Positions 1,024-50,427 of a DNA stretch of 64,000 nucleotides are shown here, piece by piece; position 1 is the first letter of the stretch; every line of letters starts with the position of its first letter. The DNA lies in contig JACPPD010000003.1 of assembly GCA_016191145.1 (NCBI GenBank), positions 62,001-126,000 on the forward strand. Direction: 5' to 3'. The DNA comes from Ignavibacteria bacterium. GTDB taxonomy: Bacteria > Bacteroidota > Ignavibacteria > Kapaibacteriales > Kapaibacteriaceae. A model generated the notes under the pieces. That model searched no databases, had not been told where the DNA came from, and was given only the letters and a program-made list of their open reading frames with translations. Made by a program: the position numbers and the translations under genes.

Positions 1024-2709
1024 ATGATGATGAAACAATTTGTGGAGCCGTACATACGTGCGGCGCTTGGAGAGATTGGCACTGATCCGAACCATGACGT
1101 CAGCTTCGAAGTTCCCCGACAGGAAGGGTTCGGTCACCTTTCAACAACCGTAGCCCTTGCGCTTGCAAAGCCCCTTCGCAAATCGCCCAAAACTATTGCC
1201 GAACAGATTGTGGCATCGTTGGGTAAGATGCCAATGGTTTCCTCTGTCGACGTAGCAGGACCAGGCTTTATCAACTTCACCTTTGAACCGGCAGCGTTTC
1301 ATTCAATCCTCAAAGATTTAGCTGCAGAGGAATTGAATATTGGCCGAAGTGAGATTGGCGAGGGCAAACGAGTAAACGTTGAATATGTAAGCGCAAATCC
1401 AACCGGGCCTCTCCATGCAGGCCATGGCAGAAACTGCGCCATTGGCGATACGATAGCCAACATATATGAGTGGTGCGGCTATCATGTCACACGGGAATAC
1501 TACTTCAACAACGCGGGCAACCAGATGAACAAGCTGGGAGAGTCCATTGCCTCGAGAATACTCGAACTCCACGGCAAGTCCGAGCTTATTCCATTCCCTG
1601 CCGACGGGTATCACGGTGAGTATATCAGACTCATCGCTCAAGCAAATGCCAACGATGAAGAACTGCGAAGACTCGAAACGTTGTTGAGTCAGAATCGCAA
1701 TGAATCAGGTAGTATAATAAATGAAAAATATATCAATGAATTTAAAAAGAGATGTTCTAAACTGGGAGAGAAATGGTGCTTCGAGTCCATTCAGAGAACA
1801 TTGGAATCGCTGGGGATACACCACGAAGTGTTTTTCAACGAAGACACGCTGTATGCCGATGGAAAGATAGAGGCAACTATTGCCCTGTTGAAAGCAAAGG
1901 ATCTTGTTTACGAGCGTGATGGGGCTCTGTGGTTTGCATTGGAAAAACTTGGTAATCCGCAGGACAAGGTAATCGTTAAATCCACGGGTGAACCTACGTA
2001 CAGACTCCCCGACATTGCCTATCACGCCGATAAACTTTCGAGGGATTACGATTTAGTGATCGACATCTTCGGTTCAGATCACATTGCAACAGTTCCCGAT
2101 GTAATGGCAGGCATTAAAGCGCTCGGTTTCGATGTTGAACGTGTGCGCATCGTCATTCACCAGATGGTAACGTTTGTTGAAAACGGAGAGATCGTCAAAT
2201 TTTCGAAACGCTCGGGGAAGAGCTTCACGCTCGACGAGCTGATCGAAGAAGTTGGATCCGATGTTGTGCGATTCTTCTTCATCATGCGAGCTCCCGGCAC
2301 GCATCTCGATTTCGATCTGGGACTTGCAAAGGAAGAAGGCGAGAAGAACCCGGTTTTCTATCTTCAGTATGCTCACGCACGGATCAGTTCAATTCTGCGG
2401 AAAGCTCGGAGGGAACCAACCAGTGCTGATTTATCGGTGCTCACACATCGGCGCGAATTGGATCTCATCGGAATTCTCTCACGTTTTCGGGAGGAAGTGG
2501 AACGTGCATGCGAAAATCTCGAACCACATACCCTGGCAGAGTACCTACGCGATTTGGCTACAGCCTATCACCAGTTTTATCACGACTGCCGAATACTCGG
2601 CAGTGAAAAGAAGGTCGAAAAAGCGCGCCTTCTAATCGCTGCAGTCACCCGCAGGGCAATGGCAAACGGACTAAATATTTTAGGTGTTGCTGCACCCGAA
2701 ACGATGTGA
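1024..2709 (+). CDS. argS: Arginyl-tRNA synthetase
   Basis: Class I aminoacyl-tRNA synthetase that charges tRNA-Arg with arginine using ATP. The 561-residue product shows the N-terminal Add-1 region, the HIGH signature as HAGHG within SANPTGPLHAGHG (residues about 123-135), a KMSKS equivalent written KFSKR (about 392-396), and the C-terminal anticodon-binding DALR domain ending at the stop. Length is normal (550-580). Three consecutive ATG codons (1024, 1027, 1030) follow the rsfS stop, so the exact start is uncertain by one or two residues. A locally AT-rich stretch around 1705-1760 encodes a polar loop (residues about 228-245) and does not disturb any motif. Confidence 0.96.
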   Translation: MMMKQFVEPYIRAALGEIGTDPNHDVSFEVPRQEGFGHLSTTVALALAKPLRKSPKTIAEQIVASLGKMPMVSSVDVAGPGFINFTFEPAAFHSILKDLAAEELNIGRSEIGEGKRVNVEYVSANPTGPLHAGHGRNCAIGDTIANIYEWCGYHVTREYYFNNAGNQMNKLGESIASRILELHGKSELIPFPADGYHGEYIRLIAQANANDEELRRLETLLSQNRNESGSIINEKYINEFKKRCSKLGEKWCFESIQRTLESLGIHHEVFFNEDTLYADGKIEATIALLKAKDLVYERDGALWFALEKLGNPQDKVIVKSTGEPTYRLPDIAYHADKLSRDYDLVIDIFGSDHIATVPDVMAGIKALGFDVERVRIVIHQMVTFVENGEIVKFSKRSGKSFTLDELIEEVGSDVVRFFFIMRAPGTHLDFDLGLAKEEGEKNPVFYLQYAHARISSILRKARREPTSADLSVLTHRRELDLIGILSRFREEVERACENLEPHTLAEYLRDLATAYHQFYHDCRILGSEKKVEKARLLIAAVTRRAMANGLNILGVAAPETM

Positions 2710-2725
2710 ACACGCAGAGCAAATG

Positions 2726-3283
2726 CTAACGTTTCCATTTAATAGAACAGCCTGTGCTGGGAAGTTGCTGACCGCTGACTCCAATACCGTCTATCAGCGC
2801 ATTTACGGCGGCGCTAAGATCAGCTCCCGTTACTGGCTTGCCGTTGCCAGGTGTGCTCTCGTCGAACCGACCACGATAGACTAATTTGTTCATGCCGTCA
2901 AACAGATAAAAATCTGGTGTACACTCAGCCTGATAAGCCCGTGCAACGTCCTGCGTTTCGTCGTAGAGGTAAGGGAACGTGAACCCATGCTTCTCGGCAT
3001 ACAGCTTCATCTCATCAGGTCCGTCTTCGGCGTATCGGCTGACGTCGTTCGATGAAATTGCAATGACGCGTACACCACGCCCCCTAACATTTTTAGCAAG
3101 ATCTACAAATGCGCTGATGATGTTCTTTACAGAAGGACAGTGATTGCAAATGAATGCGATGATGGTACCGGCGGATTCACCAGTTTCGGGCATTGTGAAT
3201 TGTTTGCCGGTTACCACATCGGGTAGCGTGAAACCGGGAGCATCGGTCTGCAACGGTAACATGCTTGATATTGTGAGCGCCAT
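2726..3283 (-). CDS. Thioredoxin-fold protein with CNHC redox motif
   Basis: A 185-residue cytoplasmic thioredoxin-like protein of the AhpC/TSA-ResA superfamily. It has no signal peptide. The redox motif is CNHCPSVK (residues about 46-53), the characteristic CNHCP variant of this subfamily, followed by a cis-proline loop in ECTPDFYLFD (about 118-127), and the family ending GCSIKWK. Members are generally called thioredoxin family protein or putative peroxiredoxin; the substrate is not established. The gene converges on argS with 16 nt between stop codons, and runs divergently from the UPF0598-thioesterase gene with only 17 nt between start codons, so any promoter must overlap coding sequence. 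Start ATG 3283 is the only good candidate. Confidence 0.85.
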   Translation of the reverse strand: MALTISSMLPLQTDAPGFTLPDVVTGKQFTMPETGESAGTIIAFICNHCPSVKNIISAFVDLAKNVRGRGVRVIAISSNDVSRYAEDGPDEMKLYAEKHGFTFPYLYDETQDVARAYQAECTPDFYLFDGMNKLVYRGRFDESTPGNGKPVTGADLSAAVNALIDGIGVSGQQLPSTGCSIKWKR

Positions 3284-3300: not shown

Positions 3301-4209
3301 TTGTTTTTCGTCATTCGACAGGTTTTTGGAGATAGATTGCAGCGAGATTATTACTACGAAGTAAACGACAGAGGCGTACTAACGCTGGACGGACTCGTCC
3401 AAAACGATCCTGCATTCCTGGATTTTTTCTTTCGGCGTTTGGCGATTACTGCTAATCCGCATTATCCCGATCACCCTTATGTGAGCAGATGCGGAGACGA
3501 AATGAATTACCTAAAGCCGGCCGATACTCCAATTGTTTTTACAGGGTTCGACGGTGAACGTTTACTTTACGCATACTCTCTTTCCGTGCCGATGTTCCCA
3601 GACCGCTTACGATATTCCGAAGACGGAATTCTATACCACTGGGCGCCTGTTGGCGGAGTGGGAAGAATTGTTCCAGCAGTTGCAACAGAGATTTCTCGAC
3701 ACATAGAACATTGGGGTCCATATTATGCGTTTCGTGATACTGAACACAACTCTCTAACACCCTTTATTCCCATTCTATCAGAAGATTTTTTGACTGTGCT
3801 GAGGCCTCGTGCCGACAGTGCATGTATTGGATGTGGCGCAGGCAACGATAACTCGTTTAGGCTATCGTTTATTCACGATAAACAGGCAAACGCAGTTGTT
3901 ACCTATATCAAACCGGATGCGAGGATGCAAGGCTCGTTTGGAATTGTGCATGGAGGGATGATATCGCTGCTGCTCGACGAAACGATGGGTAAGTGCCTGA
4001 GCGCTGGTGGCATAAAAGCTCCCACGGCTCGCATTTCCGTGAATTACAGAAAACCTATGATGCTGGGTGTGGAATACGAAATTCGCGGATGGGTAGATCG
4101 TCAGCAGGGGCGGAAGAACTTTATGCGTGCTGCTATATGCTCCTGGGATACCCGGGCTGACGTGATTGCAGACGCCGAAGCCTTGTTCATTGCCCTAAAG
4201 GGGGGGTAG
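3301..4209 (+). CDS. UPF0598/DUF4505 domain fused to PaaI-type hotdog thioesterase
   Basis: Two domains are visible in 302 residues. Residues about 12-160 match the UPF0598/DUF4505 family (the family of human mitochondrial C8orf82): DYYYEVNDRGVLTLDG, FLDFFFRRL, HPYVSRCGDEMNYL, DTPIVFTG, then a GGVG segment and a PYYAF ending. Residues about 175-302 form a 4HBT/PaaI hotdog domain: CIGCGAGND, FGIVHGGMISLLLDE (the HGG motif) and ISVNYRKPM. Hotdog enzymes of this type hydrolyse acyl-CoA or other thioesters. The start is TTG 3301; a second TTG at 3337 lies just before the conserved DYYYEV. The stop is followed 6 nt later by the metallophosphoesterase gene. The thioesterase call is firm as to fold; substrate unknown. 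Confidence 0.82.
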   Translation: MFFVIRQVFGDRLQRDYYYEVNDRGVLTLDGLVQNDPAFLDFFFRRLAITANPHYPDHPYVSRCGDEMNYLKPADTPIVFTGFDGERLLYAYSLSVPMFPDRLRYSEDGILYHWAPVGGVGRIVPAVATEISRHIEHWGPYYAFRDTEHNSLTPFIPILSEDFLTVLRPRADSACIGCGAGNDNSFRLSFIHDKQANAVVTYIKPDARMQGSFGIVHGGMISLLLDETMGKCLSAGGIKAPTARISVNYRKPMMLGVEYEIRGWVDRQQGRKNFMRAAICSWDTRADVIADAEALFIALKGG

Positions 4210-4215
4210 CAGAAG

Positions 4216-5466
4216 TTGAACCAGCAACCGAATTTCACATTATTTAGTATCATCGCCGGTGCAATTCTTGTTGTACTTGATGTGTACGTCCTTGCACACT
4301 GGACAAAATTTGCTAAACGACGTCAGCTCAGGCCGATGTGGTACAACATCCCCTGGATAATAGCTGCTGCCTTTCTGATACTAAACATCGCAATAGCTTT
4401 ACGCAGACATTTTTTTCGATTGGATTCCACAGACACCCTTCTGGTGGGACTCATAACATTTTGGTACCTGCCAAAAGTGCCCATCATGTTGTTTTTAATT
4501 GTCCGCGATGTTCTAAAGTTGATGCTGTTGGTGGGCAGCACTGTCAACCGCATATTTCGGCTCGGAGTCAAACAGCAAACACCCAAGCCAGCCGTATTAG
4601 CTCCATCTGAATCTCGGAGAACGTTCCTTGGTAAGGCAACATGGTCGCTGGCAGCAGTGCCATATGTGATAACCGGAAGCAGCATGCTGAGTACGGTGTA
4701 CGATTTTCAGGTGATGCCAGTTGAACTTGTGCTTCCCAATCTCCCACGTAGTATGGACGGTCTGAAAATAATTCAGATCTCCGACATACATGCCGGATCG
4801 TTCCCAGATTACATGCCATTTCAGGAAGCGTTACGATTGGTGACGGAGCAGCGTCCGGACGCTATTGTCATTACCGGAGACTTTGTCAATGCCAGACCGG
4901 AAGAGCTTTCCATAATTGCGCGAGACCTTGAGCGACTCCGTGCACCAGAAGGTGTATACGCAAGCCTGGGAAATCACGATCATTATAATTCGCCCGCAGA
5001 GCACAAGCAAATTGTTTCGATGGTAAAAGATCTTAGAGTCGATCTGCTCATCAATGAGAACAGACGTATAGGTGGCGAAAATTCGCGACTTGTTCTTGCC
5101 GGCATGGACAACACAGGAATGAGGCAGGATTTTGGTCGTATCGATCTTGCCCTGCGCGGAACGTTGCCCGATGACGCCATCATCCTGATGTCGCACGATC
5201 CAACATTTTGGGACAGGGGCATTGTTGGCCAGACTCCGGTTGGGCTTACGTTATCGGGGCATACACACGGTGGACAATTCGGTGTGCAGGCATTTGGATT
5301 CGAATGGAGTCCTGCTCAATATGTTTACAAACAGTGGGCAGGCCTGTATCGGACAGGGGATCAGGTAATTTATGTGAATAGGGGGCTTGGTACCGTTGGC
5401 CCTCCAGTACGTGTTGGAATACCACCCGAGATCACTGTTTTTACGCTACGCTCTCACGTTGCATGA
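4216..5466 (+). CDS. Membrane metallophosphoesterase (YkuE-like) with internal twin-arginine motif
   Basis: The 416-residue protein has three or four N-terminal hydrophobic segments (about 8-30, 43-62, 75-95 and 97-110), then a twin-arginine-like motif SRRTFLGK at 133-140 followed by another weakly hydrophobic stretch (141-160), and a calcineurin-like metallophosphoesterase domain from about 180 to the end. Metal-binding motifs are all present: ISDIHAG, TGDFVN, LGNHDH, MSHDP and SGHTHGGQ. YkuE of Bacillus subtilis, a relative, is Tat-exported, so the catalytic domain here is probably outside the cytoplasmic membrane. The start is TTG 4216, 6 nt after the preceding stop. The stop codon directly abuts the stop of the convergent M20 gene. 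The substrate (a lipid or cell-wall phosphoester) is unknown. Confidence 0.85.
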   Translation: MNQQPNFTLFSIIAGAILVVLDVYVLAHWTKFAKRRQLRPMWYNIPWIIAAAFLILNIAIALRRHFFRLDSTDTLLVGLITFWYLPKVPIMLFLIVRDVLKLMLLVGSTVNRIFRLGVKQQTPKPAVLAPSESRRTFLGKATWSLAAVPYVITGSSMLSTVYDFQVMPVELVLPNLPRSMDGLKIIQISDIHAGSFPDYMPFQEALRLVTEQRPDAIVITGDFVNARPEELSIIARDLERLRAPEGVYASLGNHDHYNSPAEHKQIVSMVKDLRVDLLINENRRIGGENSRLVLAGMDNTGMRQDFGRIDLALRGTLPDDAIILMSHDPTFWDRGIVGQTPVGLTLSGHTHGGQFGVQAFGFEWSPAQYVYKQWAGLYRTGDQVIYVNRGLGTVGPPVRVGIPPEITVFTLRSHVA

Positions 5467-49929: not shown

Positions 49930-50427
49930 ATGAGCAGCGATAAAGAAGAGGCAACCATAGACCGAGGTCCGATTACAATTGAAGGCTTTGGTACATTCAA
50001 TCACAGACTCCACAGCAGGGTAAGGTCGTACGACGTCGACCGGCAGGGCATCGTCCACAATGCAATTTATTTGTATTGGCTCGAAGCCGCGCGCATCGAA
50101 TACTTCAGAGACCTTGGAGTGCCAATAGATCGGCAGTCCTTTGTTACAAAACATCGGTTTGTTGTGGTGACAACGGAAATTGAATACGTACAGCCAGGGC
50201 AGTTCGACGATCCATATACGGTGTTCACGCGAGTGTCGTTTGTGAAAAACTCTTCGTTTGGATTTGAACACGTAATCCAGCATCAAAACGGAACCATTCT
50301 TGCAACAGCCAAAGCTGTTCTCGTGCATCTTAACCCTGCAACGCAGCAGCCCGAGCGAATTACCGATTCGTATAGATCTTTAATAAAAGAGTTTGAAGGC
50401 GATTCAGTAAACTTCACCGACTCGTGA
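49930..50427 (+). CDS. Acyl-CoA thioesterase (YbgC-like hotdog)
   Basis: 165 residues of the 4-hydroxybenzoyl-CoA thioesterase (hotdog) fold. The active-site region RVRSYDVDRQGIVHNAIYLYW (the YDVDRQGIVHN core at about 35-45) with its aspartate is that of the YbgC/4HBT subgroup; the strand WLEAARIEYFRDLGV follows. Members hydrolyse short acyl-CoAs and are often in Tol-Pal or fatty-acid contexts; here it is 15 nt after the threonine aldolase and unlikely to be functionally linked. AAGGCAG lies just before the ATG as a weak ribosome-binding site. Confidence 0.87.
   Translation: MSSDKEEATIDRGPITIEGFGTFNHRLHSRVRSYDVDRQGIVHNAIYLYWLEAARIEYFRDLGVPIDRQSFVTKHRFVVVTTEIEYVQPGQFDDPYTVFTRVSFVKNSSFGFEHVIQHQNGTILATAKAVLVHLNPATQQPERITDSYRSLIKEFEGDSVNFTDS

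Follow-up and report, generated by a model that had tools for sequence, protein, structure and literature searches.

A conserved DUF4505/UPF0598-hotdog fusion protein in Kapaibacteriales and a few Leptospirae, with a tentative link to CoA thioesters

The DUF4505 family (PF14956) is presumably the family also named UPF0598, with C8orf82 as its human member. In the accessible text of the publications concerned, C8orf82 appears as an uncharacterised protein of the mitochondrial matrix (PMC7066081) and the relation between UPF0598 and DUF1285 is already stated, in the form of personal communications (PMC2954204). The cleft of DUF1285 proteins is predicted to bind a nucleotide-type ligand and Nudix genes were noted among their neighbours, in a report whose available portion gives a phosphoglycerate-mutase case once and describes no hotdog fusion (PMC2954208). 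Among the pocket matches of the DUF1285 structure 2re3, acetyl-CoA (1dm3, ligand ACO) comes third with p of about 0.055, beside NAD and FAD, in the table available to us (PMC3892921, Table 2). On the thioesterase side, the accessible part of one source places THEM4 in the cytoplasm in a table and in mitochondria elsewhere, and THEM5 in mitochondria (PMC10982514). The name DUF4505 was found in no paper, and within the literature retrieved on UPF0598, C8orf82 and DUF1285, as far as its text was available, no report of a fusion between DUF4505 and a hotdog domain was found; the literature retrieved on THEM4 gave none linking it with C8orf82. The two-domain protein presented here is conserved and, within the literature thus covered, previously unremarked.

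The protein is encoded in a stretch of 64,000 nucleotides from a genome of the Kapaibacteriales, hereafter the window. A single frame of 302 codons runs there without a break on the forward strand, from TTG 3301 to TAG 4209. The first-pass annotation of this DNA had read it as a DUF4505 domain and a hotdog domain in one uninterrupted frame, and the architecture is real: both domains pass their Pfam gathering cut-offs (DUF4505, PF14956, residues 14-137, 66.3 bits against a cut-off of 27.3, E 4e-18; 4HBT, PF03061, residues 213-280, 38.1 bits against 20.6, E 2e-9), the motifs that it quoted (FFFRRL, VSRCGDEMNYL, CIGCGAGND and HGG) are found in the protein, and neither a stop nor a frameshift separates the halves. 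Its limits for the gene, 3301-4209, hold in so far as the frame is open throughout; translation would probably start at TTG 3337 and not at TTG 3301, since GGAG stands at 3328-3331, 5 bases 5' of the former, and most relatives begin there, so that the product would have 290 and not 302 amino acids. Residue numbers such as D63, D214 or T230 refer to the 290-aa protein and positions of Pfam matches to the 302-codon frame. The features of the gene are as follows.

3337-4209, forward strand: probable coding sequence of the DUF4505-hotdog fusion, placed by the open frame, the GGAG and the start shared with relatives; the alternative start TTG 3301 would give 302 aa
3340-3711, forward strand: DUF4505/UPF0598 domain as matched by Pfam, the folded domain reaching to about 3770 in the AlphaFold model
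3823-4206, forward strand: hotdog thioesterase domain including a leading CxGCG motif, with THEM4 nearest; the Pfam 4HBT match covers 3937-4140
3949-3957, forward strand: HGG motif, the same in 48/48 fused proteins reaching it
3976-3978, forward strand: Asp D214, at the helix-Asp position of HGG hotdogs, present in 48/48 and aligned with the Asp of THEM4 (4gah)
4024-4026, forward strand: Thr T230, present in 48/48 and aligned with the Thr of THEM4

At the level of the family, the hotdog half is, from its sequence, near certain to be a thioesterase. Its nearest solved structure by sequence is human THEM4 (4gah, E 1.6e-11; 4ae8), followed by 2ov9 and THEM5, and a full-length AlphaFold model (pLDDT 95.1, pTM 0.87) agrees on the hotdog fold, Foldseek returning 490 matches at E <= 0.001 with 4gah again the nearest (E 9.8e-11). 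The HGG motif, helix Asp and Thr of HGG-type hotdog thioesterases (THEM4/PaaI group) are all present and aligned with 4gah; we take the Asp and Thr aligned with D214 and T230 to be the catalytic residues of THEM4. Among 51 aligned proteins, H205, G206, G207, D214, E215, K219 and T230 are identical in the 48 of 48 that reach them. The earlier label of a PaaI-type thioesterase was right as to the fold and loose as to the family: the PaaI equivalog TIGR02286 scores 14.8 bits, short of its cut-off of 118.9, and TIGR00369 scores 24.3 against 36.6, so that both NCBIfam cut-offs are missed, and THEM4 is the nearest structure. The pair C163 and C166 is identical in 50/50 fused proteins, including that of locus L052 (5472-6338, forward strand, genome G058/G470), in which HGG, Asp and Thr are missing from the hotdog half and the CxxC pair and the full-length frame are kept; to judge from its sequence, this protein is possibly a dead thioesterase. 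A further 4HBT match of the same genome as the fusion lies in the window at 50044-50295 (G000:C15:112044-112295; E 2.1e-12).

Protein search and Pfam together place DUF4505 in 49 of the 123 genomes of the order, leaving 74/123 without it. The protein search, run on 99 relatives, matched 53 genomes, only 49 of them with the DUF4505 half; G049, G083, G089 and G097 gave weak, hotdog-only matches. Pfam alone called DUF4505 in 46/99 relatives and in 46/123 genomes of the order, the diverged members G055, G076 and G080 being picked up by the protein search but not by Pfam. Across the phylum the Pfam count is 18 of 395 sampled genomes, all 18 in the window's order, and 0 of 14 control genomes carried the domain. 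Conservation of the fusion across Ignavibacteria, which the first-pass annotation proposed to check, is thus borne out for this order and not for Ignavibacteria at large. Inspection by residue covered 48 of the 49 genomes (L050, L051 and L055 being taken as G034, G041 and G066) and gave 45 with a complete hotdog motif, two truncated by contig ends and one, L052, with the motif lost; the remaining genome, G064, has a full-length match in the protein search. No stand-alone DUF4505 was found in these 48 genomes. Candidates for that status were rejected, the short frames of G071 and G045 stopping at contig ends and that of G058 (L052) being full-length with a degraded hotdog half. The fused proteins are 31-63% identical to that of the window (26 aligned proteins), and no relative of the fusion was found on a plasmid or in a viral contig. 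Restriction to a single genome, which the first-pass annotation would have counted against its own reading, does not apply, since the fusion occurs in dozens of related genomes; as these are independent genomes with one and the same domain order, chance, a frameshift or an assembly join is ruled out as its source. A scan of contigs with SPCGxEMN-like patterns, run once and open to escape by diverged motifs in other bacterial groups, gave 30 loci, 22 from the window's order (L068 included) and eight from Leptospirae.

In the phylum of the Leptospirae, DUF4505 was found in 15/344 genomes, all 15 among the 48 of class Leptospirae. Eleven of these genes are stand-alone, three are hotdog fusions (L059/L091, L086 and L089) and one is a GNAT fusion (L092). 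The latter (L092:1165-2289, forward strand, genome G575) holds DUF4505 in frame with a GNAT acetyltransferase domain (PF13673, E 6e-16) and was seen in one genome. In the DUF4505 tree, built from 42 domains, the 30 hotdog-fused ones lie on the same side of one branch (94/88). With the GNAT fusion scored as not fused, a single change of state suffices. The Leptospirae fusions, three in number, make up a starred clade (99/95) nested among the fusions of the window's order (88/94). On a tree of hotdog domains, the fused ones form a group separate from the 4HBT paralogues in these genomes, the uniting branch reaching only 80/77. For the latter tree, 13 of 30 paralogue loci had a profile-matched frame and 12 of them entered, with L106 (E 0.001) left out; L052 and L055 were excluded before the build, L131 and L089 are rows of one gene, and long branches are flagged. 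Both trees agree with a single fusion event, and the simplest reading of these sequences is that the whole fused gene was probably passed between phyla; as the DUF4505 tree is unrooted, the direction of transfer and the choice between fusion and fission depend on the root. Contamination of bins as a source of the Leptospirae fusions was ruled out by the neighbouring genes: a gene for a 450-aa protein next to L059 occurs in 9/9 Leptospirae genomes and in 0/6 tested genomes of the window's order, and this gene together with that of thymidylate kinase stands beside the fusion in all three Leptospirae genomes.

For the DUF4505 half, no solved structure was retrieved by sequence at E <= 10, and PF06938 (DUF1285) had no Pfam match in the window protein at E <= 1. 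A model of the DUF4505 half alone (pLDDT 94.4) nevertheless matches the DUF1285 structures 2ra9 (Z 11.2 over 119 residues) and 2re3 (Z 10.3 over 135 residues), the next match having Z 3.3, and Foldseek gives E of 5e-6 to 7e-5 to DUF1285 structures. The model supports the two-repeat fold of a DUF1285/UPF0598 superfamily and, with it, the relation given in the personal communications (PMC2954204). A DUF1285-like family was found in 17/149 spirochaete genomes at E <= 0.001, with none above the Pfam cut-off; its members at L132-L139 have about 170 residues and score slightly below the cut-off of PF06938. In single hhalign comparisons of the DUF4505 profile with that of this spirochaete family, the probability was 63 and 81 and E 7e-5 and 1.2e-5, and the longer alignment pairs the positions of Asp63, Tyr100 and Arg110 (D, Y, R/K). 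Of the 51 fused proteins, 50 have Glu and one has Asp at position 55, and D63, Y100 and R110 each persist in 47. A catalytic Cys at C52 was ruled out by its replacement in 6/51; since the loci were found with SPCGxEMN-like patterns, conservation around C52-N57 carries a bias in the alignments A4 and A5. In the Leptospirae fusions L059, L086 and L089, Asp63, Tyr100 and Arg110 are all changed, jointly.

The surroundings of the gene were compared over 31 stretches, namely the window and 30 loci, some of them short and some from Leptospirae. In the window, three neighbours belong to recurrent clusters.

4216-5466, forward strand: calcineurin-like metallophosphoesterase gene, 6 bases 3' of the fusion (PF00149, E 6.6e-14; cluster c1)
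2726-3283, reverse strand: AhpC/TSA-type thioredoxin-fold gene, divergent and upstream (PF00578, E 1.8e-18; cluster c13)
1024-2709, forward strand: putative arginyl-tRNA synthetase gene (argS), upstream, read from the sequence (cluster c3)

Of the 31 stretches, 14 have the metallophosphoesterase gene, 13 putative argS and 5 an AhpC/TSA-type gene. Where both were called, the stop of the fusion and the start of the phosphoesterase gene overlap by 4 bases in 8/10 stretches, the window and L064 having a gap of six bases. L054 has a D-Tyr-tRNA deacylase gene 5' of the fusion, and in L068 a member of its cluster takes that place. At L055:3831-4664 and L057:5168-6052, SelR/MsrB and AhpC/TSA-type genes stand together immediately 5' of the fusion, in the reverse orientation; the SelR/MsrB gene of L055 is matched by both Pfam and NCBIfam, and MsrB-type genes occur in 2/31 stretches. 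At L074:6001-8519, downstream of a stand-alone DUF4505 gene and on its strand lie genes for S-(hydroxymethyl)glutathione dehydrogenase (class III alcohol dehydrogenase TIGR02818, 722 bits against a cut-off of 544) and S-formylglutathione hydrolase (TIGR02821, 394 against 282). A lipoprotein-like cluster, c12, is conserved near stand-alone DUF4505 genes (6/31 stretches) and has no match in Pfam, NCBIfam or PDB. Among the spirochaete loci L132-L139, a dGTPase gene adjoins the DUF1285-like gene in 3/8. The Nudix neighbours of DUF1285 may be CoA pyrophosphatases. The neighbourhood of the fusion itself names no pathway.

The reading that we favour, to which we give a probability of roughly 45%, is that of an acyl-CoA thioesterase carrying a DUF4505 domain that binds a nucleotide-containing ligand, likeliest CoA or acyl-CoA, and so tunes or targets the enzyme. 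The THEM4-like hotdog half would dimerise and hold acyl-CoA in the interface, where the thioester would be cut with the help of the HGG loop, helix Asp and Thr, and the DUF4505 half, with its DUF1285-type fold, would sense the CoA/acyl-CoA pool through a predicted cleft lined by Asp63, Tyr100 and Arg110. In this scheme we infer the thioesterase activity, the dimer, the position of the three residues in the cleft, the identity of the ligand and the regulation. The first-pass annotation had proposed from the fusion that UPF0598 proteins work on or with acyl-CoA or other thioesters; the fusion is indeed kept, and sequences and models lend such a role indirect support. This support comes from the fusion of DUF4505 to a GNAT domain, of acetyl-CoA type, in L092, and from the stand-alone DUF4505 gene directly upstream of the S-formylglutathione-pathway (FrmA/FghA-type) genes in L074. 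A third element is the DUF1285-like fold, with a cleft predicted in the accessible text to receive a nucleotide-type ligand (PMC2954208).

Against this explanation, a GNAT partner and FrmA/FghA-type neighbours were each seen in a single genome, one fusion event is one datum, and the gene most constantly found beside the fusion encodes a metallophosphoesterase and does not belong to lipid metabolism. No ligand or activity was found for any DUF4505 or DUF1285 protein, and the acetyl-CoA pocket match is weak because of its p of about 0.055 and its mixture with NAD, FAD and others. The dGTPase genes beside DUF1285-like genes suggest nucleotides generally and not CoA only, and the loss of D63, Y100 and R110 in Leptospirae, together with that of the hotdog residues in L052, suggests that the protein does not in every case need both halves in an active state. 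What the DUF4505 domain recognises could equally be a different nucleotide or a protein.

If the partner were a protein, DUF4505 would be a binding or oligomerising module that places an ordinary acyl-CoA thioesterase, for example by the metallophosphoesterase, with no small ligand involved. The constancy of this neighbour, with the stop/start overlap in 8/10 stretches, and the lack of a catalytic Cys, C52 being replaced in 6/51, fit such a module, as does the description, in the available text, of a PH-like C-terminal half of DUF1285 with no strictly conserved cleft residues (PMC2954208, PMC2954204). However, the conservation of the polar residues E55 (50/51), D63 and R110 (47/51 each) goes beyond the needs of a docking surface, and we consider this module somewhat unlikely.

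Binding of a nucleotide other than CoA (NAD(H), a dNTP or a second messenger), which would tie the thioesterase to the redox or nucleotide state, appears unlikely, as both fusion partners of DUF4505, hotdog and GNAT, come from families of CoA-thioester enzymes. It would nonetheless fit the dGTPase genes of 3/8 spirochaete loci and the AhpC/TSA-type (5/31) and MsrB-type (2/31) neighbours, and, in the parts of the sources available, NAD and FAD among the DUF1285 pocket matches (PMC3892921, Table 2) and the Nudix neighbours (PMC2954208). A functional accident fixed once by descent, with independent halves uninformative on each other, would explain all cases by a single event, one change of state, and suit the 74/123 genomes of the order devoid of DUF4505, but it is very improbable given a fusion kept at 31-63% identity, surviving what was probably a transfer from one phylum to another, and never replaced by a stand-alone DUF4505 in the 48 genomes inspected of the order's 49.

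Sensing of CoA or acyl-CoA by UPF0598 is thus a reasoned hypothesis, built on one ancient fusion, the GNAT fusion, one neighbourhood (L074) and a predicted nucleotide-type cleft. For UPF0598, a fusion to a recognisable enzyme that an order has retained and another phylum has probably acquired gives an unusual hint of function from sequence, and should DUF4505 prove to bind CoA or acyl-CoA, C8orf82 and proteobacterial DUF1285 would gain a first biochemical handle; the bacterial fusion protein should express and assay easily. It is doubtful, though conceivable, that UPF0598 and DUF1285 together make up one (acyl-)CoA-sensing superfamily acting with CoA-thioester enzymes (the THEM4-like thioesterase; GNAT in L092), in which case C8orf82 would be an acyl-CoA sensor or a partner of THEM-type thioesterases in the mitochondrial matrix.

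Compared with known systems, the protein of the window resembles different families by its two halves. Human THEM4, a hotdog acyl-CoA thioesterase, is the nearest in sequence and fold and aligns with the hotdog half at HGG, Asp and Thr, but at about 24% identity and over this half only. The PaaI-type thioesterases (TIGR02286, TIGR00369; 1psu) have the hotdog fold in common with it, although the window protein stays under both curated cut-offs. DUF1285 (PF06938; 2re3, 2ra9) shares its fold over most of the DUF4505 domain, at Z 10-11, yet with only 13-14% identity and without being called in the window protein by Pfam. The DUF4505/UPF0598 family itself (PF14956) is stand-alone in most of the Leptospirae that bear it (11/15), whereas the copy of the window is fused to a hotdog domain.
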